NCBI GenBank assembly: GCA_950295325.1
Contig: OX485806.1
Location: 12,650,001-12,714,000, forward strand
Source: Polytrichum commune
Taxonomy: Eukaryota; Streptophyta; Polytrichopsida; Polytrichales; Polytrichaceae
Direction of reading: 5' to 3'
Length of the DNA stretch: 64,000 nt
Shown here: piece after piece, positions 1-42,392 of the stretch
Position numbering within the stretch: the first letter of the stretch is position 1
Layout: each line of letters starts with the position of its first letter
Program-made: the position numbers and the translations under genes
Notes under the pieces: generated by a model
Seen by the model: the letters and a program-made list of their open reading frames with translations, nothing else
Told to the model about the DNA's origin: nothing
Database searches by the model: none

Positions 1-672
1 GTCCCACGTAAGAGGTCTATTTTGCGTGGGACGACTTCATGGGACGACTTCCATGGTCCGAGTTACTAAAATATTAGTTTTCATGGTTCATGGGCCCTTC
101 ACTAGGTGTAAACCGAATGTGGACCATGAAGAATGACCATGCGGCAAGAAGTGGATGTGCTGATTTTTTTTAATATAAGCCCAAAAAGGGCAGTTTTGGG
201 GGAAAATGAAGTTTGAGCATTTTGTTGACTTCAATTTGCCTTCACTTGCCTACACATGCCTTCGCTTATCTTGTCAATTAGTTTTTTCTTCTTTTCACCT
301 TAAAGTTTGATCATTCTCTTGTCATCTCTTGGGCTTCAACTGTCTTCACTTTTTGTTAAATGTGTCGAAGATGTGGCTTGCAAATCTTCTCACAACAATT
401 TTTACAAAAAAAAAATGAGCGATGCAATTGTACATGTTCAATGTAATTTACATGTGACATGTACCTTGTGTTTCACTACACTAAATAGGATATTTAGTGT
501 TTGATTATATATGATGTTGTTACCACCCAACCTTCCTCAACACTAAATTTCAATTCTTTGATAATTAATGTTAGAAGATTTCCCATTGCGCTTCTTTTGA
601 CCACCCTGATCTACAGTCACTAAACGACTATGTATTTTCTTATTTCTTTTTCAACTGTATGTTTTAAAATTT

Positions 673-742
673 TTGGAGCGTGTAATATACCGTTGGAAAG
701 GTATTTTCAAGACCTTTCCAATGGTATATTACACGCCTCCAA
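673..742. other. Near-perfect 30-bp inverted repeat (hairpin)
   Basis: The left arm at 673-702 starts TTGGAGCGTGTAATATACCG. The right arm at 712-742 is its reverse complement, apart from one extra base and one G·T-type mismatch. The loop is 9 bases (ATTTTCAAG). It could be a small foldback element or a microRNA-like foldback; the sequence alone does not decide. Confidence 0.6.
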
Positions 743-948
743 ATTCCAAACATTGCAGCTGGTAGACCAAAAAAACAAATCTGCACTTGAATTCTTGAGT
801 TCTAGATGTCCTGCGTTGTTTGATGAAACACGTGTAAGCGGGTTTAAAGGGTAGGGCAAGGTAGTGCTGTTGTGTCTCATGGGCTATAATATAATTAAGG
901 CACGTAAAAGGTAGATTCATTAAAACATTCGTGAAATGGCATTTCTCT

Positions 949-1196
949 GACATGGGCCCTTGCCTTTTCCTACCAGACCACCTTTTCTTGCCTCTCTCAA
1001 CGAAAAACCCGTTGGACCATGTCAGTGCATTTATTAGGCCTTAAAAATTATATTTTGGGGACCTCAACCTCCGTGGTCCCTTTGCCATTTTTTCCTTAGT
1101 GTAAACCGAAGTTGTCCCGGGACAACTTCAAGAACCAATCAGTTGCCTTGCAGAGCCCTGGTCCAACTTCATGGTCCATAGTGTAAACCGCCCCTT
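949..1196. mobile_element. MITE family A, copy 1 (right part)
   Basis: Aligns over its whole length with 21146-21393. Shared blocks include CTGTTGGACCATGT-like, GTGTAAACCGAAGT, CAACTTCATGGTCCAT and the end GTGTAAACCGCCCCTTA. The end looks like a Tourist/PIF-Harbinger terminus (CCCC next to TTA). The left boundary is unclear; a GTGTAAACCG plus GGACCATGAAG segment at about 107-131 may be its other end. The element follows exon 6 of the minus-strand gene by about 20 bp, so it lies in that gene's next intron. Confidence 0.55.
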
Positions 1197-1215: not shown

Positions 1216-4200
1216 CTGTTTCTTGAGCTTTGCGGGAGCACCTTCAAGCTCCTCCAACTTGTTGGCTTTCTCTGCAATGGCCTCCTTTGTTAAGCGGATG
1301 GATTCCAAGCATTCGACTTGCCTGGTTTTGTGTTCCTCGATCTGCCAAGTTCATCACCACTTAAGTTAGGGCCACTTCACACACAAGGCTGAAGGCCCTC
1401 GACCACGGCAATGTAAGAGCTCTCATTGGTCGAAAAGGCGGAGACCATCCAAGTTCACTTCACACCAGGAGGTGAAGGTCTAAAGGCCCTAGGAAAAGTT
1501 CGTGGATGAAAAGTGTACATGGAGTCCTACATAGTTGGTTGTGGATAAGGGTGCATGGTCTACCAGAATTTGCGTCAGACCCACCTCTAAGAGGTGGGCT
1601 TGATGCAAATTCCGGGAGACCATGACTTTTTTAATATTTTTTTCCAACAGGACAGATTTCATGACAAATTGCATGGTAGATTCCAGAACAGATTCTAGGA
1701 CAAACAAACACCACCAAGTAATTATCTTAAATTGATAAACTTGGAGACATATTATATTAAACCAAATCCTCCCCTCTTTTTCCGCCAACAAAATATGCAA
1801 TGGTCCCGCATAATGGTTCATTCTCACTTCACACTATGCTTGAGGGCCCAAGACTACATAAAATGGCTTTCCCAACACCCATGGTACGGCCTTTGGATGA
1901 GAGTCAAGGGTCCTCACCATTACAAGGTCACGGCTCTTGGCTCATTTGTGAAGTGGCCCTTAGTAGCCAAATCTCGTGACAAACAACTTTAAACCTCGTG
2001 TGTCTTAATATATTTGGAGTCTTGTCAAGTGTGGCAGATGTGCATATAATATAAAAGGTCACTTGAGGCTCCCAAAAAACAAGGGAGACAATCCACGTGG
2101 ACTTTAACTTGAAGTAAGTCTAAGTGTTGGTTATGACAAGAGAAGAGAAGAACTTTGACATGTAAAACCGCATGCATGAAAATAACTTTGGGTCTATTTT
2201 CTGATAAATGGCAAAGGATGTTGATCCAATGAGGGTTAATTTACACCACCGACCAGTGACCATGACCAACGCTTTTTAAAGTCTCTCATTGGTTGAGAAA
2301 TGAGTGGCGGTTCCATTTTGTGTTACACGAGGTCATAAAAATAAGCGTGAACGTGGGTGAGGACATCAGAAAATGAACGGGAAAGTGACTTAGAATCCTA
2401 CATGTCCAGAAATGGACCATGTTTGGTGGTCACCCGGATTTTGCGGCGAGAGAACCCACATATGTTGTCTCAATGGAAAATAAGGTGATTATATCATAAG
2501 AAAAAACAAATTTTAGCAACATTGTGTTTTTTTAGATGTCTACTTTAAAGTAGTTTCTAAGTACATATTTTAGTATTTCTTATTCTTCTTCATTAAACAT
2601 TGTATGCCCATCTAATGCCCCCTTCCCACCTGACTTTAGCTAAGACTAAAAGTTGGTTCTAACAAATGGGCATTCACACCATCGACAATATCTAGTGCCG
2701 AGCCTAGGTGGCAAATGATGTGGCATGGAGGTTTTAAGCCTCAACCACCGACCCTCCCATTGGTACCTAAACATGAGGCAAGAATATAGGAGCTTTAAAA
2801 GTGTCGCCTCCCACCCTTGTGATTGGTTGCTTTTTAGTCTTAGCTATGAGGGCACGAGGAGCCCCATTAACAAAAACCGATGGTAAGATAGGTGAGTAGT
2901 AAGGCATTTGGGGATGGGACAAAAACTATCCAACATTCATTGCTTGGTAGATAAAACCATGAACATGTGCTAAAACCTACTTAAAAATCTCCATAGCAAG
3001 TTCTTGTAGGTGCATTGGGATAGTCGGATGCCTCCGCTATAACCGAGGGAGCTTTCCCCGGTTTTTAGAAAATACTTTGGGTCTTAGCTAAAGTCAGGTG
3101 GGAAAGGGGCATAAGTCCACTTTAAACTCTGTCCCATGACCAAGGGTTTAAAAAATCTTATGGATTTCTCTTGGTCATGGTCTTCAGACCGTTGACCGTG
3201 ACCGCAAGAATTGCTAAAGCATCTTTTCTCATGGCCCTTGGTCGCACGTGTATAACAACCCTCAATCCGATGGACATCTTTTGGTGAGGAAATTATTGTA
3301 TATGCGCGTGTCTATGATCCATTCAACATAAAACTCGACCTCATGTAGGTTTGTTGCCGATTCATCTCAAACGACCTTGAGTAGACTAATTTGGGGCCTT
3401 TAGAACAATGTCAAATCAATCTAAAAAGGTAAGCTTTGGGCTACCACACTCTTTCATGGCTTTTATGTTGGATGAATGAGAGCACATGCTCATACACAAT
3501 ACTTCCTCTCTCCATCTTTGGTGGGTTGACTAAAAATTAAACCAAGCATACTGGACTTTGATTGAGAGCATGATCACACGTTGTATACTAACAACTAACA
3601 AAATTGGGTGCTCAATGGGGAACACATTATTTGAGAGGGGAGTAGTCTCATTATGTGTCCTACACGCTCACTCTATACAAGCTTCATAAAATTGTGGATC
3701 CCATGATCAAAACTAATATCTTATAATATATAAGACTTCACATTGAAATAGTCGAAGCTAGGATTTATTTGGTCAAAGATAATGCGGTATGGATTCTCTT
3801 AAAGAGGAGTTGAAAGTTGGGATGCACCATACCCAAGCTATTATAACGTGGAAGGGTTTTCCGAACCCCACCAACATGGGTCCAGCTCACATGCTAAACT
3901 TGACATTGTCCCATTGCGGGACCATGTATTGATAACATGTGAACATCCTCCAATTATTAACATTATTGTAGATTGAGAACGACAAAGGTTGTCACAAGAA
4001 TACATGAGTGGTTGCACCTCCTTGCTACATTGCTTTATTTTCTCAGCCCGCTCCAAGCATTCTTCGGATTCGATCTTGATTTCTTGCTATGGAAAACACA
4101 AAACCAATGCTTCAAGAAGAACCCCATCAAAAGTTGGAGGATGCAATTACATCAAATGGTTTAAACTATGCAACTCCAAACTACAATTCACACTAATTGA

Positions 4201-7018
4201 AACTAAATGGTGTGGCTCACTTCATCCCCCTTTCGAAATGTAAATTAAGGTCACTTTTCATAGCATGATAAGAATCAAGTTTTGTGAGGACTATGCAACA
4301 CGTGATGTTGCGAAAGAAATTTGTGACATCCAACATATTTATGGAACAATGTGATTCATTGCGTATTGATAGTTTGTATCAAATTTGATGAATAGAGGCA
4401 ACCTCCGACATAAGACATCAACACTTGGCCCATAGCTCAACCCCTAAATTTGTTCACTTGTTCATACTAATACGTGTTCTCTTTTTATACTAATATGGTT
4501 TCAGTTGAGCATTGGTGAAATACACGAAACTCGTCTCATCATGGACTCTATGACACTTGGACTAAAAATTATATGGATTTTGATTGTGCTGGAAAAAATG
4601 ACCCGTGTTTGCCAAGAGTGACATGAACTATACAATCTCTTTATCCACATGCTATTGAAGTTGACACACATTAGCATCATATATACCAACTTGCAAGCGC
4701 GCAATAACCGGCTCCAAGGCGGCCGCGTGTTCGCGCTTGATCTCTTCAATCTTCTTCTTGTTCTCCTTGCGTATTTTTTCCATCTCTTCGGTTAACAATG
4801 CCAACCGGCCGACCTTCTCACTGCACCAAAAATTCAAAATAAAATTAAAAAAAAAAAAAATGACGCGGTGGATGCAAATTAGTCAACTTTAAGAGGATCG
4901 TTTCACAAAGTTGGGATTTAAAGTCGAGCCTCAAAAAGGAGAATGCAGTTCAAAAATGTTCCTTCAGAACTTGTTGTTGATGATGTGATAAGTGTTTTGG
5001 GCAATCTGTTGTGTGTGGTTACCATGGGCATCTCAATTTAAAGTCTAAAGGTCCACACTGTTAGGAAATATATTGTAGTAGATTTCATGCAATCCTTTTA
5101 CTGTATTTATTGCATCCATTCTTGTTTCGTATACCTTGTGTATCATAAATTACACAATTATAACCGGAGACCTAAAAAGCTATCTTTAGTGGCAAAGAAC
5201 CAATGGCAACGATCCACATATCCTTGTAATGATTTCAAATCACATAAATTTCATTTTTATATTATATCGTTGATTGATATTTCAACGTGTGTGTGTATGT
5301 GTGTGTGTATATATAAGTCTTGGAGTAGAGGTGAACATGGCTATGGCAGCTTCAACATCAGCTTGATCTAAATCTTCAGTCACAATAGTTATCATCTCTT
5401 TATTTATTTCTTCCTTCTTTTCCAACTTTTTTATTGTTTCCGCATCACCCTAAAACCCATGAAATGAGTATGTTAGCATTTTATGATTATTATTCATTTT
5501 ATAGCAATGATAATCTTATCCATTTTCAAGAGGTTATTGTGCGGATCCCACAATTGAGGTATTTGATTTTAATGGAATGCCAATAGGAAATGGGATTTTT
5601 TTAACATAACTTGGACATGAAACTTATGTCAAATGGATTGTGTCAAAAGAGATTATTTATCTCTTGGTATGAATATGGAAAGATAGTTCCAACTCCATCC
5701 CATATCCAATTGTTGATTGAATCCAAGGAGAATCTAATAATTATGCAACATCATCATTAAATATTTTTCTTATAATCATTGAAGTTACTTGGATTAAGAA
5801 AATAAAATAAAAATTAGGACATTGATAACATGACTTAGCCATCCTACTAAGGGCTTTGATTCCATGAATTTAACAAGAAGCTTTCCCACATAATTTTCTC
5901 GGAATTCTCACAAGCACCAAATTATGGATATTTGACGAGCTAAATTCTCTAACCATGTGTAAGAAATATCTATTATAGAAAGGGAACACTCCCTTCAAGC
6001 TACATGTTGATATGTTCGTATTATCGATGAAAACAAATAGGCCATCTCACTTCTATCAAATGTGGACTCGCAATCATACTGGAAACAATTCAAACCTTGA
6101 TTTGAGTGATCCACTCTGCACTCTCTGAAACAAGCCGCCTCTCATACATGAGTTTTTCACGAAGAGCTCCTCGTAGGTCTTCAAACCTAAGCTCATCCAT
6201 GCAATGCAAACATATGACTCTTGTTTATTATTATGAAGATGTCAACATAATCTATCATTTTACTAGGATTCAAGCACCTTACAATTTCAAGCACAAGTTG
6301 AAAGTTGACAAATCAACACTATAAACAAATTGACACAAGTGAGCTTCATTGCAATTAATTAGCGGAGGTAGAGTGACTTCCTTCAAAGGTGAGAATGTTG
6401 TCAAAAACTTTATTAATTCTCAAAGATGTCGGGACGATCTCATCTCATTGGATATTTGAAACGTAACCATATTGGTCAACACTCAAGTGCTTGAGATTGA
6501 AAGACGCAATGCATCTTATATACCAAGAGAATTCCATTTTGGCTATACCATAACTTTTTCAAGCAATTAATGATAATGTATCAATTTTGATGCATTTTGT
6601 GAGCATATTTGTGTGTGTGGGGTAGGTTATCAATCCCTCCAAATCAACAACAAAAGTCATATATGTTAACTTAGGGCTAAACAAGCATACTAACCCTATG
6701 GAAATATAACTAACACATATTAGGTTTTTTTGGTATTGATCACAAGTTTGTGTTTAGCAAGGATGAATCCTTTGTTTGAAGCAACAAATATAACAAAGAG
6801 CCTTTCACAAATAGTCCTCCTTCAATGTTGGACATAGTGTATGCATTTGAAATACAACAAAAGAATGCTTACTTTTTCTTGAGGTAGTCGGCTTTGTCGG
6901 CTTTGATAAAACCTTGAGTCAATTGTTGTGCCAAAAATCCATGAACGGCATCTATCTTCATCAAGCTTTGTTGGCAATAAAATTCGGGATTCGTAATCTC
7001 TCCTTGATCTTTTGCCAT
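1216..7018 (-). CDS. CCDC146/MBO2-like coiled-coil protein, 5' part (6 exons, continues off left edge)
   Basis: This gene is assembled from six short exons on the minus strand: 7018-6873, 6186-6096, 5449-5337, 4820-4691, 4086-4018 and 1341-1216. All introns have GT and AG ends and every junction keeps phase (2,0,2,0,0). The exons sum to 675 nt, giving 225 residues without a stop. The start ATG at 7018 has an in-frame TGA nine bases upstream. The product is charged and heptad-like, a long coiled coil from about residue 40. Residues 1-48 include FYCQQSLMKIDAVHGFL, followed by DYLKKKFEDLRGALREK. Exon 6 ends in ELEGAPAKLKKQ. The pattern of a short lead, then 'G.I...K...LK.K+..L', then 'E..P.+..KQ' fits my memory of CCDC146, a ciliary/centriolar microtubule-associated protein (MBO2 in Chlamydomonas). 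That identity is inference. The last exon ends at a GTGCTC donor, so the C-terminal part should lie left of the window. Intron 5 (1342-4017) carries two MITEs. Confidence 0.7.
1369..1959. mobile_element. Tourist-like MITE family B, copy 1, with TTA target duplication
   Basis: The ends are GGGCCACTTCACACA and its complement TGTGAAGTGGCCC, flanked by TTA on both sides (1366-1368 and 1960-1962), as expected of PIF/Harbinger-type MITEs. The middle (about 1557-1622) is a second hairpin built on GAATTTGCGTCAGACCCACCTC-type arms. A second copy lies at 19901-20399. The element sits in intron 5 of the coiled-coil gene, only 26 bp upstream of the exon 6 acceptor. Confidence 0.8.
2616..3111 (-). mobile_element. 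Tourist-like MITE family C, copy 1 (496 bp), TSD TAA
   Basis: The inverted ends start TGCCCCCTTCCCACCTGACT and continue for about 30 bp to CTAAGAC. TAA duplications lie at 2613-2615 and 3112-3114. The internal sequence is the reverse complement of the copies at 33.3 and 57.5 kb. It lies in intron 5 of the coiled-coil gene. Confidence 0.88.
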
Positions 7019-8518: not shown

Positions 8519-8560
<42 letters not shown>

Positions 8561-8915
8561 AACTCCGGTCCCTTTTTCAAGGGGCCGGCGTGAATAAAGT
8601 GTCCGTTCGTAATGCCAATGACCCGATGCCCACTGGACAAGGGGACATTGGGACAATACTACTCTCCCCTTTCGAGGATGGACACTATAGTGACACACTA
8701 TACTAGTTCCTAGCTAGCCACTAGTGCCTTGAAGATACCGGACATGGTATCCCCCCAAAGGGCTTTGAGGTACCCATACAACAAGGTCCAAGGACCCCCC
8801 ACCATAGTTGGGTGGACTGAAGTGGTGAGCACCACGCCGGCATGGGGAATAGAACCCACAACCTCCTCATTGGGGGCCATGAGCCCTAACCACCAAGCCA
8901 AGGCCCGTGGTGCCT
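8519..8915 (-). mobile_element. tRNA-derived SINE, full length, with (TCTA)n tail and 12-bp target duplication
   Basis: On the minus strand the element starts at 8915 with AGGCACCACGGGCC. It then has an RNA polymerase III A box (TTGGCTTGGTGGTTAGGGC) and a B box (GGGTTCTATTCCC) about 33 bp on, as in a tRNA head. It ends in a TCTA microsatellite tail (GATA on plus, 8519-8561). The 12-bp duplication TTGTTGAACACA lies at 8507-8518 and 8916-8927. A 5'-truncated copy is at 62373-62458. The short open frames seen here are not genes. Confidence 0.92.
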
Positions 8916-23892: not shown

Positions 23893-26800
23893 ATGAGAGA
23901 TATAAACTCAGTCTCGGTGCCGTCACCGAATGCTGCTGCCGCGGCGACTTTCACTGGCATTTCTATTTTCCCATTAACAGAGACAGTTGTCGATGGAACG
24001 TCGGAGGTGTGGCCTACGTTTGGCCGACCTATCGGTGTATTTGCACAGCTCAAAACGGATAAGCAAGGCGCGTTTGTGGAGTTCTATCGTGTTTCGGAAC
24101 CTTCAGCTGTTGGTGACAAGGGAGCTTCACTTTTCCGGAGATGCTATTTGCACCTCTCCCAGGTCCCTTTTTCTTATCCCGCATTTCTGATTTTGATTTC
24201 TCTGCATCTAAGGTGGATGGGCCTTATTTTGTTACTTTTTGCTGTTTGCTACCTTATACTACTCGGATCCTAGAAGCCAGGATTAATCTAAGAAAGTTTT
24301 GGATCTAATGTCGCATCGTTATGAATCATCAAAGTCCACTGCCAGCGAGCCATAAGAAGGCCACATAGGTCCCACTAATTATGTTGAGTATTGAGCCTAG
24401 GATCGTTAACAATATTTGAGCACGTCATTCAATCTCCTTTAAACACATGATGCCTTGTTGATGTCCGTTCTTAGATCTGCACCTCCCCATCCACCACTTA
24501 AATATAGGTGTCAGGTTAAGGTAAGTAACCGAATTAGGCCTGCTTACCTTAGTAGTGATATTGGACTTTTCATGTTAGTCTCAGAACCTTCATAGGATAG
24601 CAAGCTTTAGCTGAAAGTTGTAGGATTTTTAGTCCGTAGTAATAGCTTCATTCAATGTGCAGAATCTGACCGGCTTCTTCATATTTGAATCCCTTTTCCA
24701 CTTTCACTTCTGTTGTTGCCTATGCGTCGGTAGACTTTGATGATTGATACTAAATGAGGGTGAGAATCTAGTGTACCCACACTTGGAGAATATAGGTTTT
24801 GGGAGAATATAGGTTTTTATTCAATTCTTGGCTCTCTATATACAGGTGGTTAAAGTAGGGCCAACACTCCAAATCTGGGCTGTGGATGAATCACATGCAG
24901 AAGGCTTGTCAAAGGTATCTGTTCATGCCCAAGTGGACCATTTTAAATCGTTTTGAGTTGTGTGAACTGTTTTTTTTTCTACCTCTTGTTATCTGAGATT
25001 GTTACTTCAGTATCTGCTTTGTCTTTTCTTGACCTCTTGATATAGTACTGCTCCTTACCCTTTTCATTCTACCCAGGATGCATTCAAATTTTCTTGTTCC
25101 CCCTACAATTTCTATTACTGTATTCATGCCAGGTCCATTTGGCACTGGTTCTTTGTGTTTGCTATGTAAGAGGTGGTCAATATTCCTGTGTTGCAGATGA
25201 CATCCTTTGGACTTCAATTTACTTTGCAGAAAGGGAATGATAGTTTTTATAGTGCGCTTCTTGACTACAAAGTTGATGCTGTAAAACAAGGTACCCTAAA
25301 CCCTTGCATAAATTGCGGGGATTAGTTTCTAGGTCAAGGGTCTTATTGATGAGTTCTGTTAGTTTCATATGTGATAGCTCTAATGGATGTGGATTCAAGA
25401 TGGATCTGGTACAAAAAGCAAGTTGGTAGAAAACAAGCCATGGATGCTTTTGGGCTTAGAATTGTCAATTTAGTATCTGCTTAAGCCAATTCTCTGAATG
25501 ATAGGTTCTGACCTCATGCAGAAGTTGTAGATTCCAATGAGGACAGTCTTATGACTGTAAGCAAGTTTGAGAAAAAGATTGAGCCATCATCAGCCAAGAT
25601 GTACTTTCATTACTATGGCCAACTCTTGCATCAGCAAAACATGATGCAGGACTATGTGCGTACAGGTGTGCTTAGCTATCTCCTTTTTGGAGTCCTATAG
25701 ATACCAAAGAACCTCTACATATCAAAGTGCTGAAGGTCCATCTAAAACTGGAAGACGACCTTTGGTTGGATTTTGGAATGTGATATATTATTGGTGTCTT
25801 CATTGTATGTGTGATATATATTTTCTTTGCCTATTCTACTTCCTGCCTTGTCATGTGTTAAACATTGGTCTACGTTTACACTCTAAATATGTGAATTATT
25901 CTGGTCTTGCCAGTCCACACGCAATGTGCTTACTGTGAGTGAGCTATTGAACTTACTTTCATGACTTTCATGGTTGCTTGGGAACCAGGCACGTATTATG
26001 CAGCTGTGATTGAGAATCACACAGATTTCCATGGTAAAGTTGTGGTAGACGTTGGCGCAGGCAGTGGTATCCTTTCTCTCTTTGCAGCACAGGCAAGTAT
26101 TAACTGTCCTTCTGAATTGCTGATATTGTGATATTTTGATAGTGGTAGCTTACAAAACTTGTCAAAGAGAGGTGTAGTTCAGTGTGGAAGAGTCTGCTTG
26201 AGTGATTTTCTTTCTGAATGAAATTATACTCGTGATGAGCTCTTGCCCTAGTGATAATAAGGAATCCTTTATGGCATGGTAGATGTCTTCTACATTCTAT
26301 TATCTTTCCATGATTATTCTGGTAATGCTTGTAATAATTGAAGAGCATGTCATGAAAGGATCTGGATAATTTTACGTGTCTGTACTCAAAGTGCAGGGTG
26401 GTAGCTCCTAGAGTCAATGACAATACTGTTGTATTTTTAGAAAGATCTTGACCTACTTGGGTTTAGGGTTGATGGTGAATGTTGGGTGTTAAATATGACA
26501 GTAACACATAAATTTTCAAGTTGGAGGAGTAAATCAATGTGCCCCTGAACCTATTATCTCAATGCGTGTACTCTCTTGAGTACTCTCTTCCTATTCTATG
26601 CTACCAAGGTTTGGGTATTGTGTTTACATTCCATGGTCCTGTACAGGCAGGAGCAAAGCATGTTTATGCAGTGGAGGCATCAGCAATGGCAGAGTATGCC
26701 CGCAAACTAGTGGCTGGAAATCATCCACTGTCTCAGCGAATTACAGTAAGATATCTCAACTTTGACTCTAAGAGAACATTTTTTGGTATCTCAATTGAGT

Positions 26801-29800
26801 CAGCTCGCATGACTTATGAAGGATTGTCTCATCATCAAACTTTTATAAAACAACACATTTGTTGCTCTCTCTTTCCTGTAGCCTTTTTCCCTACTGGACC
26901 TCAATGGACTTGGTGGCTTTGGGGCTACTACGGGAAGTCATGAGGAAGCAAATAGTGTTATTTTGAAGTACATACAGAGATATATGCTATAGTCTGGCTT
27001 TTAACCAGGAGACTGTATATTTTTGCAATGCTGGAGTGAATTTTTGTCAAGAGAGTCGTTATTGCCAATGATGTGTTGATTCTCAGGGACATCAGGATCA
27101 GAGTCTGGCTAATGCAGCACAGTCTGTATATTGTGCTCTATCTTAGTGTAGCACGTTCAAGGGTCCCGGATCCTCAGAACAATTGACTTTTGCTTATCGA
27201 TCACCGCAGACTGTTTAATTGGTACAATTGTTTCTATGTGTGAACTGGTTCATATTAGCAACAGTTAGTTGAAGCTCTGAACACTCTGGTCGTTTGAGGT
27301 AGGCAGCATTGTAGTGCAGTAGGGTTGAGAGTACTTATATTGTTGCAGGTGATCCATGGCAAAGTTGAGGAGGTTGAGCTGCCAGAGAAAGCAGACATCC
27401 TAATTTCAGAGCCAATGGGTGAGAGCTTAGCTATGCTGGTACATCTCCAGTGAATTCTTGGAAAGTGGAAAATCAAAGATTCCAACGTGATCCATGGGGA
27501 ATGGTCTGGGAAAATTTGAATATTATGATTGATAGAGGGTGAATAAACATTTCCATCGAGATCACTGAGAGGTTCAGATGTTCACCTCGTAAACAAGACA
27601 ATGCATACCTTGTCTTTGAAAGTGCAGTGGCTAAGAGGTTTGAAGTAAGTCTGGTGTTCAGTGCACCTGTTGGGGTGAATTCTGAGGGATCACTACTAGG
27701 ATAATCAGTCAACTCTACACAAAATCCACCTGCTACTTTATATTTTGCCTATAGTTTGACTTTTTACATAACAAGTCCTTGATCAAGGACCCAATAAAAT
27801 TGATGAAGAGGCGGCATCTGGTTGGCAATAACTTCATTTCTGCAATTTACATTCACTTATCCATTATGTTCCTACAATTGTTGAGAAGAACATCAATATC
27901 TTGGGTTCAGTAATCTGTTCACAGATGTGTTCTTCAAATTATTAAAATCTATTCATGTATTAGTCTGTTCTCAATTACCATCAAACACAGTGAAGATTAT
28001 TAATATCTCAGTTCACATCTTCATGCAGGAACTTTGCTGGTGAATGAGCGGATGCTTGAATCCTACATTATAGCCCGTGATCGATTCTTGGTACCTAATG
28101 GGAAAATGTTCCCCTCTCAAGGAAGGTTAGAACTTATTGTGCTTGTGTACCTCTATCCCTTGGTTGTCTTTGTTTCAGTCAACTTTTTTTTGTCTTGTGT
28201 CTTTTGTCAAAAGTGCACTGTCTTGTAATGGCTGCCCTTATACTGCTCAATGTCAATGATGTCATTTCTATCCAAAATATGTACATGTTTTGGTGCTGCT
28301 GTGGCCTTATCTTCTGGACATTTGGTTAAAAGGCCTTAATATAAAACTTGGATACCTGCTACTTTCATGTACAACAGGAGGTTCAGAACAAAAGGCTTTG
28401 ACACTAAACATGGAAGCCTCTTTTTTGACAAGTTTTTGGTTGAACTCTTGGTGTCATCAGAATACACATGGCGCCTTTCAGTGACGAGTATTTGTATGGT
28501 GAAATTGCAAACAAGGTACATATTTATCTACTTTCGTGTACTATTCAAAGTTACACTTCAAAATGGAAAAGCAAGGTGTGTAAATACGATCAGGTTCATT
28601 AGAAAATGTGCTTGCACTTTTTTCAGTCAGTTCAGCGGATGATTTAGTTCTGTTTTTCTAAGCTTTTGAACTGTCTTGAACTTCTGATGGATATTTGGAA
28701 ACTGTTCTTAGCATAAATGCTTCACATTGTGGATTGATGTGCTAGAGAGTGATGGCTGTGAATCCTGGTCATACTATGCTATTCAGAGGAGAAGTCAGTT
28801 GTGCAATTATTTTCACCTTGTTCTCTCAGTGGATGAAGTTATGCTAAGTTGGATTTGGTGAATATTTGCAGGCTTTGTTTTGGCATCAACAGAGCTACTA
28901 CGGGGTTGATCTTACCCCTTTGCGGGATACTGCTTTCCAAGGTTACTTCTCACAGGTGGGAGCGGTTTGGATCCGCGAACGTGGAGTTAGATTTTATTTC
29001 ACTCTTTGCATAGAAAATTCCAGTTTTGTTAACATTGCATGCACTACTCAACATTTTTCAACCGTTTTTTGATTTGGATGGGCCATATGCTCAAAATTAG
29101 TGCTTTTGGTAAATTATAATAAGTTTGTTCTGAAAGTCAGAAAATGAGTATTGCTGTCAAATATCCCAGCGAATATAGTAAAACTTGTGTGGATGTTTGT
29201 GCAGCCTGTAGTAGATGCATTTGATCCTCGACTCCTTGTTGCACAGCCTATTATTCACGTTATCGACTTCCTAACTGCCAAGGTATTCCTTGTCCTTTTT
29301 CCACAAGTTGTGAACATGGCCCTCTAATGTGGCCTATATGGATCCTGTGTGCACTCTTAGCGCTTGTTGAGCAAAGTCATGAAGTACTTCTGGTCAGGTT
29401 GTTCTGGTCAGGTTGTTCATGGTAGTTGCAGTTCACAGGCTCATTAAAATTGTCTCTGACAAATGAGGTTGACGACTGGAATCTATCCAATTCTTTTCGT
29501 TATCAGAGGCTATGAAATGTGGTAAATTAGCCTCTGGTGTTGATTTAGATTATCCCTCAGAAAAATCATGGTATCGTTAAATAACTTTGGCGAATTATCT
29601 GCGTGCTCAATAGGAGGAGGATCTTTATGAAATTGATGTGCCTCTGGATTTTAAGTCAGCAGTTGCTGCACGCATACACGGCTTGGCATGTTGGTTTGAT
29701 GTACTGTTTGATGGCAGGTAATACCTCTCTGACTGAAGCCATTGTCTTCTCATCTTTTGTAGCAATCGAGCGTGTTATCAAGTAGTGTCCTTTCATGCCA

Positions 29801-39869: not shown

Positions 39870-42392
39870 GGGTGGGTTTAAACTAGGGTCCCATACCAAA
39901 GAAACTCCAAAACTGAGCAAACATATTGGTCAAGAGTAAAAATTTGGACTCATGGGGATTACATCTTTAATTTAGTGAAGTGGCTTCAATCCAAGCTCAC
40001 ATATGAGTATGTGGTTATGATCAAGGTGAAGTGTCCCTTATTCACGCCAATATCAAGGTGAATCCAAAGTATGAGAAAATGAAGTGGCATTAATGTGGCA
40101 TCATTTTTTTTACCTTTTTTTCTTTTCTTTTTTTCCTACTTTTTGGATACAATTGAAACAAGTTTATTCCAATGCCAAAAAAATTAAATCATACAACACC
40201 ACCGGCTCCCCAAGAAGACAGCTTGGCGGACTCTCTTGGGTGCACATGATGGAACCACAAGACCCCACGTTGAGTAAACAACCTAAACATGATCAACTAA
40301 GCCCATACTAGGCGCTCTTATTCTCCATTGCATAGTCCTAGTGTTATCTCCATGGTAGAGAAGTTCATTCCCTCCCCAAATTTTATGATAATTTCCAAGT
40401 GTGCCATCATAGATAGTTGTTTGATCTACATCTTTGGAGGCAATGTCCCAAGCGTTCCTAGCATATTCAAGAAGGCCTTGCCAGATCACTTGTGTGCACA
40501 AGCATGGTCAAGTACACAACTCCATTACTTTGCATAGGTTTAAGTGAAAGTGATTCGAAAAATATACTAACTTTGAGTTTTGTGAAGAAAAAAACCATAA
40601 ACATTTGAAAAGCACATTGATCTACAAAGCCAAGCAATTTATGTTGACCAAAAAAATTCAAGAAAAGTCTACACATTTTAGAAGACGGTGCAAGCGGTGT
40701 GCAAGTAGATATAGTAAACACATAATTGTCTAAAAATTGAAAACAAAATTGAAAAAAAACATTAAATCGATGTTTTTCTACAAATTTATGTAATGGTGCC
40801 CTCAATTTTAATAACAAAATTTTTAGGAATAGGAAAAAAAATCCAACTTAAGGTCATGAAATCTATGTCGAAGACCAAATTTAACCAATATATTTTGAGC
40901 AATACTTTTAATGATAAGTTGTGAAGATCTCATCTTGATATTCTCTATTTGAGTGCGTAACACAACAATAGAGGGCACCATGATTTTTTTTTGAAAAAAA
41001 CAACAACACTTTGCTACTACTTTTAAGTGTTTGACCAAAAAAATTTGGTTTTAGTATACCGGAGATTTTTTTTTCGTATACTTGACCGTGCTTGCTCCCA
41101 AATTACATTTTTTTGACATACCATTTCTAGTTATTGAATGTAAGATCAATCTTTTCCACCCAAATGGTCTACAAAGTAATGCCTCTCAAGAGAAGCCAAA
41201 CCCATGAAATTTTGCTCATTGACGATGGAACAATTTCCCAAAGATACCATGTTACCGATCCAAAGGCTGCCATGGTTTATTTATTTATTTATTTTTAAAT
41301 CTTGGTTTAGCTTTCATGGAAATTCCAATGGAGTAGTCCCAAGCTCTCCAAGCAATTATGGAATCCCAAAATTTGTGTGCAATGGTTTCTAGTGTGTCCA
41401 CCATACACATGAGACATTTGTCATCAATGTCTTTGATAAACCTACTCCTCCAAGAATTAATCATAGTAGCTTTATGCCAAATGGAGCAAATGTATTCATC
41501 ATCTTTACATTTGCAAGTTTTATCCCAAATGTTCCTCCATTTGAGTTTGAGACTCGGGGTAAGAATGCCATGCCATTTGGTCATAATGTTTTTTGGTGCT
41601 TACTAAGGAGAAGATTCCTTCCCATTGCATAGGTGAAGTTTAAGAAATCTTCACACATCTTCCATTTGAGCCGAGTAGGGTCCATGTCTAAAGAATCTCT
41701 CCTCCCAACATAAACATCTAGACTAGGGTTATTTTGGGTTCTTGCTAATGATACATATTGTTATTAGTATGAACCACATGTTTCTAACCGAACCGACAAG
41801 TTGCACTAGTGTAGTCGTATCTAAGATGCAAGTGCTGACTAAGATGTAGAAGATGTTAAGAGTGGGGGGGGGGGGGGTATGCCCTCGTCAAGGATTTGTC
41901 TAGAAAGTCTACTTTGGAAGTTGGTTATTGGGTGTGCATCAATTGATCGTTAGATTCGATACTCCCTACCCAACTTCTAATGGGTGTTTGAATATTCCAG
42001 TTTTGAATGGGGCTTAGCCATTGGGTAGGGATTGTCATGGTTTCAATGGCCCTCAGTTCTTTATTGTCTAGTTTGAATTTATGTGCAATTTTCCTATCAC
42101 TAAGGGGTTGGTTATGCTCAAAGTCCCAAAGGTTCTTTACATAGCTAAAGCCCTTTTTGTCAAGCTAAGTGGCCATGTTACTGGAGATGCCATATCCAAT
42201 GCCTTTAATGCTTGGGCGCTTGAAGGAACCAACTGAATCATGTTGGGTCTCAACTCAAGAAAACACTACACCCAATTTAAGACACCTAATTTCAAACTTG
42301 GGTCCAATCTCAAATCCAAAAGCGAGGTCCATTAATGGGGGTGTTTTGAACCCTAAATTTCTTGCAATCATAAATCTAATATAAACCCACCC
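39870..42392. mobile_element. Element family K interrupted by a LINE
   Basis: A 14-bp inverted pair, TTAGGGTGGGTTTA (39867-39880) and TAAACCCACCCTAA (42382-42395), encloses two halves of K. The left half runs to about 40104 (AAATGAAGTGGCATTAATG). The right half begins at about 42237 (GGGTCTCAACTCAAGAAAAC). Together they match the unbroken copy at 20490-20795. Confidence 0.65.
40105..42236 (-). mobile_element. 5'-truncated LINE retrotransposon, degenerate
   Basis: On the minus strand, 42236-41940 reads KGIGYGISSNMAT, a stop, then FSYVKNLWDFEHNQPLSDRK and IPTQWLSPIQNW, like the C-terminal thumb of plant LINE reverse transcriptases. 41584-41285 reads a zinc-knuckle zf-RVT-like segment (YICSIWHKATMINSW, CLMCMVDTLETIAHKFWD). 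Frames are broken by stops. A T-rich run on plus at 40104-40136 is the poly(A) end. A short ATCAT lies at both borders. Protein identity is from remembered family patterns. Confidence 0.68.

Follow-up and report, generated by a model that had tools for sequence, protein, structure and literature searches.

A probable second gene of the flagellar MBO2/CCDC146 type, diverged and apparently intact, in the genome of Polytrichum commune

The window, a 64-kb stretch of the Polytrichum commune genome (C4:12650001–12714000, C4 being contig OX485806.1), was analysed against the whole assembly of 408 Mb in 64 contigs. On its minus strand lie the first six exons of a gene that we call gene A (Table 1). 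In start, end, size range (69–146 bp) and count they are as the original prediction had described them, and they join in phase into 675 bp, that is 225 stop-free residues, between window positions 7018 and 1216. AG precedes exons 2–6 and GT follows all six, in keeping with the splice sites and phases proposed earlier, and the counterparts of exons 2–6 in a second gene of the same contig, gene B, are equal in length. Charged heptads of the coiled-coil kind had also been noted in these exons. Hydrophobic residues indeed recur at the heptad angle with a z of 3.2 in the six exons (reached in 2 of 1000 shuffles) and of 6.9 in an 814-residue draft of the gene (0 of 1000 shuffles), a periodicity that is not the same thing as structure.

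Table 1. Positions of the exons, genes and repeats described in the text (window positions, unless a contig is named)
Feature	Position	Length	Strand	Remark
Gene A exon 1	7018–6873	146 bp	minus	ATG start at 7018; B counterpart 140 bp
Gene A exon 2	6186–6096	91 bp	minus	B exon 2 91 bp; 13/30 residues identical
Gene A exon 3	5449–5337	113 bp	minus	donor weak by eye; B exon 3 113 bp, its donor in the model being GC
Gene A exon 4	4820–4691	130 bp	minus	B exon 4 130 bp; 19/43 residues identical
Gene A exon 5	4086–4018	69 bp	minus	B exon 5 69 bp; 6/23 residues identical
Gene A exon 6	1341–1216	126 bp	minus	last in window; B exon 6 126 bp; 13/42 residues identical
Gene A exons 7–19	C4:12648491 down to 12631958		minus	left of window; TAA ends at C4:12631958
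Gene A exon 17	C4:12633411–12633259	153 bp	minus	153 bp in B; score 77 vs maximum 42 in 200 shuffles
Element in gene A intron 6	C4:12649971–12651194 (window 1–1194)	1224 bp		spans left edge of window
End pairs related to that element	C4:12636582–12637096 and C4:12628991–12629544			less perfect
SINE-like repeat	8560–8910		minus	TATC tail
PRMT4/CARM1-like frames	26533–26940 and 28848–29069		plus	presumed resemblance
zf-RVT-like piece	41288–41599		minus	E 0.0041; 18.2 bits, under cut-off 27.5
Gene B	C4:24726353–24742689			19 exons, 856 residues
Truncated copy of B	C4:58989737–59005128		minus	near contig end
CFAP58-type gene	C2:25.124–25.130 Mb			rough exon join
CFAP58-type gene	C7:0.358–0.373 Mb			rough exon join, cut at 3' end

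Further exons had been expected to the left, and 13 more (exons 7–19) were found beyond the edge of the window. Complete, gene A has 19 exons of 69–198 bp, set in long introns, and encodes 865 residues with one terminal stop; the donors of exons 3, 4, 8 and 18 appear weak by eye. In length and heptad periodicity the protein has the character of CCDC146/MBO2, which is likewise a long coiled coil, with some 900 residues. Full-length A was used for the Pfam score, the PDB match, the trees and the residue-retention counts. Periodicity, the codon-position test, the ranking against CCDC146 and the profile search with A and B are based on all or part of the 814-residue draft, and the stop simulation starts from B.

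Several other features were noted in and around the window. The element in intron 6 has perfect 29-bp terminal inverted repeats with TTA at both flanks and has the appearance of a MITE or other DNA transposon; related end pairs lie at two more places. The SINE-like repeat, with tRNA-like boxes recognized by eye, was scored at 40 genome places including its own, all 98–100% identical, out of 1786 rough candidates, and is thus young and abundant. Two open frames resemble what we take to be a plant arginine methyltransferase, PRMT4/CARM1; taken as single pieces they gave no Pfam match at E 0.01. The piece with a weak zf-RVT match is perhaps a retroelement remnant. A search of Rfam over the 64-kb window gave 0 families at the gathering threshold.

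Gene B also has 19 exons, of which 15 (exons 2–15 and 17) equal those of A in length, while exons 1, 16, 18 and 19 differ by 6, 3, 15 and 3 bp, each a number divisible by 3. The two proteins are 40% identical over 857 columns and 26 to 53% identical per exon in exons 2–15. Local alignment of A's 225 residues with the first 222 of B scored 362, against a mean of 58.7 and a maximum of 95 in 500 shuffles of B. How independent are the two exon models? In gene A, the edges of exons 2 and 5–14 were settled before B was known; for exons 3, 4, 15 and 17, B was already available when they were placed or detected, and exons 3 and 4 then fitted the 225 residues of the original prediction. In gene B, the edges of exons 2, 7, 11 and 15 came straight from the scan. 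For the other 15 exons, A was already known when they were detected or when one of several nearby splice sites was picked, so that equal lengths there are partly a matter of choice. With edges partly chosen in this way, the one-to-one exon match strongly backs the exon model of gene A without RNA. The six window exons are confirmed, at the level of sequence, as genuine exons.

The family could not have been named from these six exons by themselves. A 217-residue draft of them gave no significant match in Pfam or PDB profile searches, PF21771 included, and a genome-wide search with the 225 residues found, besides the query itself, only B, weakly and in two places (E 0.107 and 3.32). Profile searches with the complete protein were informative: full-length A matches the CFAP58_CC family of Pfam (PF21771) with 38.6 bits and B with 66.5 bits, both above the curated cut-off of 27. 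The best PDB match of full-length A was Chlamydomonas FAP58 (8glv chain LP, E 1.9e-18), nearly end to end over residues 37–816, rather than a kinesin or myosin tail; gene B matches the same chain, also nearly end to end, with E 2.7e-37. The other PDB matches of full-length A at E < 0.01 were CFAP58 of 9fqr (4.9e-9), CFAP58 of 8j07 (3.6e-6) and seryl-tRNA synthetase (0.0077). With 15 of the 19 exons, the same search had placed FAP58 (E 0.013) behind seryl-tRNA synthetase (0.0066), too weak for placement. These results support the assignment of gene A to the flagellar CFAP58/CCDC146 (FAP58/MBO2) family of long coiled-coil proteins, and the family proposed in the original prediction appears to be correct, though it was drawn from thin evidence.

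The genome holds other members of this family. Searching with FAP58 (606 residues, most of the Chlamydomonas protein) yielded 21 matches with E no higher than 10: eight at C2:25.12 Mb, eight at C7:0.36 Mb, two at C4:24.74 Mb (gene B), one in gene A and two further weak ones at C2:59.3 Mb. The C2 and C7 genes are of CFAP58 type and, as rough joins, 47% identical to each other; in the alignment, the conserved RNDEL stretch of the family is altered in the C7 gene. A single FAP58 ortholog is said of most species in the excerpted text of PMC11151096. A search with B returned 35 matches under the same E limit, of which 19 fell in B, eight in A, three in the C2 gene and five at a third C4 locus. In the 27 kb examined there, this locus proved to be a truncated copy of B that retains only exons 3–6 and most of exon 9 together with pieces of intron, the genomic pieces being 95.7–98.3% identical.

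To which branch of the family do A and B belong? Both share with CFAP58, FAP58 and FAP189 the CFAP58_CC domain and near end-to-end colinearity, but they differ in identity: over the aligned part A is only 26% and B only 30% identical to FAP58, whereas the rough joins of the C2 and C7 genes reach 50% and 48%. As a CFAP58 ortholog, gene A was ruled out by this comparison. Since the C2 and C7 genes are so much closer to FAP58, the best reading places A and B in the sister branch, CCDC146/MBO2. Orthologous to CCDC146, MBO2 is 920 residues long and 33.5% identical to FAP58; best matches to both MBO2 and FAP58 are reported from moss, that to MBO2 being PNR44978.1 (all from the excerpted text of PMC11151096). 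With 865 and 856 residues, A and B are similar in coiled-coil length to MBO2 of Chlamydomonas, and like MBO2 and vertebrate CCDC146 they belong to the CFAP58 family yet probably stand apart from CFAP58; a difference is that the Polytrichum commune genome would have two such genes.

The only reference for this branch in our trees and matches was a provisional, unverified human CCDC146 row of 955 residues. With this row included, CCDC146, A and B separated from six CFAP58-type rows with support of 100/99, and a clade of A, B, C2 and C7 was rejected (p-AU 0.0001). Among the rows tested, the provisional CCDC146 matched B best (E 1e-40) and FAP58 next (1e-26). Its match to A was poor, with E 8.7e-14 for the 814-residue draft and rank seventh among eight other rows. 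In the alignment, the C-terminal tail looks shorter in A and B than in the provisional CCDC146 sequence.

Alternatively, A and B could be a lineage-specific offshoot of CFAP58, that is third and fourth CFAP58-type genes and no orthologs of CCDC146/MBO2. Without the provisional row, A and B group in the tree with C2 and C7, at weak support (76/74). Every named family member matched in Pfam and PDB is a CFAP58, and FAP58 gives full-length A a higher score (103 bits) than the provisional CCDC146 does (82 bits); for B the two scores are 164 and 151 bits. Moreover, CCDC146 and the stem of A and B are long branches, so that attraction between them is possible. Among 289 columns in which three CFAP58 rows agree and the provisional CCDC146 differs, A has the CCDC146-type residue in 43 and the CFAP58-type residue in 50, and B in 52 and 64, respectively; the excess of CCDC146-type residues among departures from CFAP58 is significant for B (p 0.0045) but not for A (p 0.13). 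A profile of B and the draft of A did not reach, at E 1, the PDB chains 9e5c_1b and 9y6s_9Z, which are possible MBO2 references. We consider an offshoot unlikely, given that the corresponding clade is rejected when the provisional row is included, that this row prefers B to FAP58, that a separate MBO2 match is reported from moss and that genome searches, with the best candidates scored, gave besides A and B only C2, C7 and the truncated copy of B. Most likely, then, A and B belong to the CCDC146/MBO2 branch, a best placement reached by elimination and with the provisional CCDC146. The CCDC146/MBO2-like identity first proposed for the six exons is supported by profile matches as far as the family goes; its narrower part, the MBO2 branch, is the likely placement.

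Is gene A intact and under constraint? We estimate at roughly three in four the probability that it is intact and codes for a protein, as a diverged paralog of gene B, itself of the MBO2/CCDC146 type. Several features of the sequence point this way: (i) the frame runs through 865 codons without a stop or frameshift, at about 60% protein divergence from B; (ii) over 627 codons of exons 2–15, A and B differ most at third codon positions (0.43, 0.35 and 0.64 at positions 1, 2 and 3), with pS 0.80 and pN 0.39; and (iii) A preferentially keeps family-conserved residues, namely 77 of the 124 common to B, FAP58 and the CFAP58 of 9fqr, against 190 of 532 in columns where B has the residue of neither (p 8e-8). 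When stops were simulated from the coding sequence of B, 0.1 unconstrained substitutions per site produced a mean of 10.9 stops and no stop-free run in 400; with 0.02 per site, 35 of the 400 runs stayed stop-free. Together, the open frame, the retained residues and the simulation argue that A was constrained through most of its history; they leave room for a short recent spell without constraint.

These same features make it very unlikely that A is silent or in decay and simply retains an open frame. Such decay would account for conservation below that of B (tree branch lengths of 1.31 for A and 0.41 for B) and for the several weak donors, and the truncated copy of B shows that broken copies do occur in this genome. 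However, relative-rate (Tajima) counts with four outgroups gave chi2 values of 0.63, 3.90, 2.56 and 2.17, only one of them just past 5%; the faster rate of A suggested by the tree branches finds no clear support in these counts. That the exons of A are chance open stretches, or belong to an unrelated coiled coil such as a kinesin or myosin tail, has next to no probability: the absence of a significant match for the six exons alone would fit, but the exon-by-exon agreement with B, the CFAP58_CC membership and the FAP58 match already contradict it.

Gene B, the nearer of the two to other family members, and the more diverged gene A represent one kind of gene, which is already known. The novelty lies in the extra gene: beside two CFAP58 genes, the genome most likely carries a second member of the MBO2 type, diverged but apparently intact. 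Among the titles listed in literature searches on MBO2, CCDC146 or CFAP58 in bryophytes, none concerns such a plant gene; the moss match to MBO2 is in print (PMC11151096).

Consistent with a flagellar function, the genome has matches to other families known from axonemes. The dynein heavy-chain stalk (PF12777) gave 19 matches at 8 places, in which axonemal and cytoplasmic dyneins are not told apart, and the radial-spoke head (PF04712) gave 5 matches, 4 at one place and 1, weak, elsewhere. DRC4-type (PF13851) and CCDC96/113-type (PF13870) proteins gave 3 matches at one place and 4 matches at 3 places, respectively; among 14 control genomes, 4 likewise had matches to these two families, 0 of 14 above the cut-off. 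From these matches above cut-offs we infer an organism with motile flagella, as expected of a host of CCDC146/MBO2; taken with the frames that resemble a plant arginine methyltransferase, they suggest a seedless land plant.

What could gene A do in such flagella? The proposal for Chlamydomonas is that MBO2 pairs with FAP58 as a coiled-coil heterodimer within an L-shaped structure, by which inner-arm dynein b is linked to regulatory complexes, and that FAP189 forms a complementary homodimer (excerpted text of PMC11151096). In mouse and man, loss of CCDC146 causes male infertility with sperm defects, according to the excerpted text of PMC10942651. By analogy, the protein of gene A would be made in sperm-producing tissue and would pair in a long coiled coil with a CFAP58 protein, for which the C2 and C7 genes are present. 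Running along the outer doublets of the sperm axoneme, it may then belong to an L-shaped filament that would anchor both inner-arm dynein b and regulatory complexes, thereby shaping the beat. Gene B would have the role of MBO2/CCDC146, and A a related, perhaps specialised one. The divergence of A from B suggests a specialised site or a subset of doublets, comparable to what is proposed for FAP58 and FAP189 in Chlamydomonas. More tentatively, if both partners of the MBO2/FAP58 filament are doubled in this plant lineage (A and B; C2 and C7), the sperm could conceivably assemble L-shaped doublet filaments of two sorts, with each pair assigned to its own doublets or flagellar regions, or to the basal apparatus of the coiled sperm.

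Small exons within long introns, as in gene A, mean that such a flagellar gene is easily missed, and an exon-by-exon comparison with a paralog can back a gene model of this kind without RNA. A second, strongly diverged gene of probable MBO2 type, together with two CFAP58 genes, would make Polytrichum commune a concrete case for specialisation of the axonemal scaffold in plant sperm.
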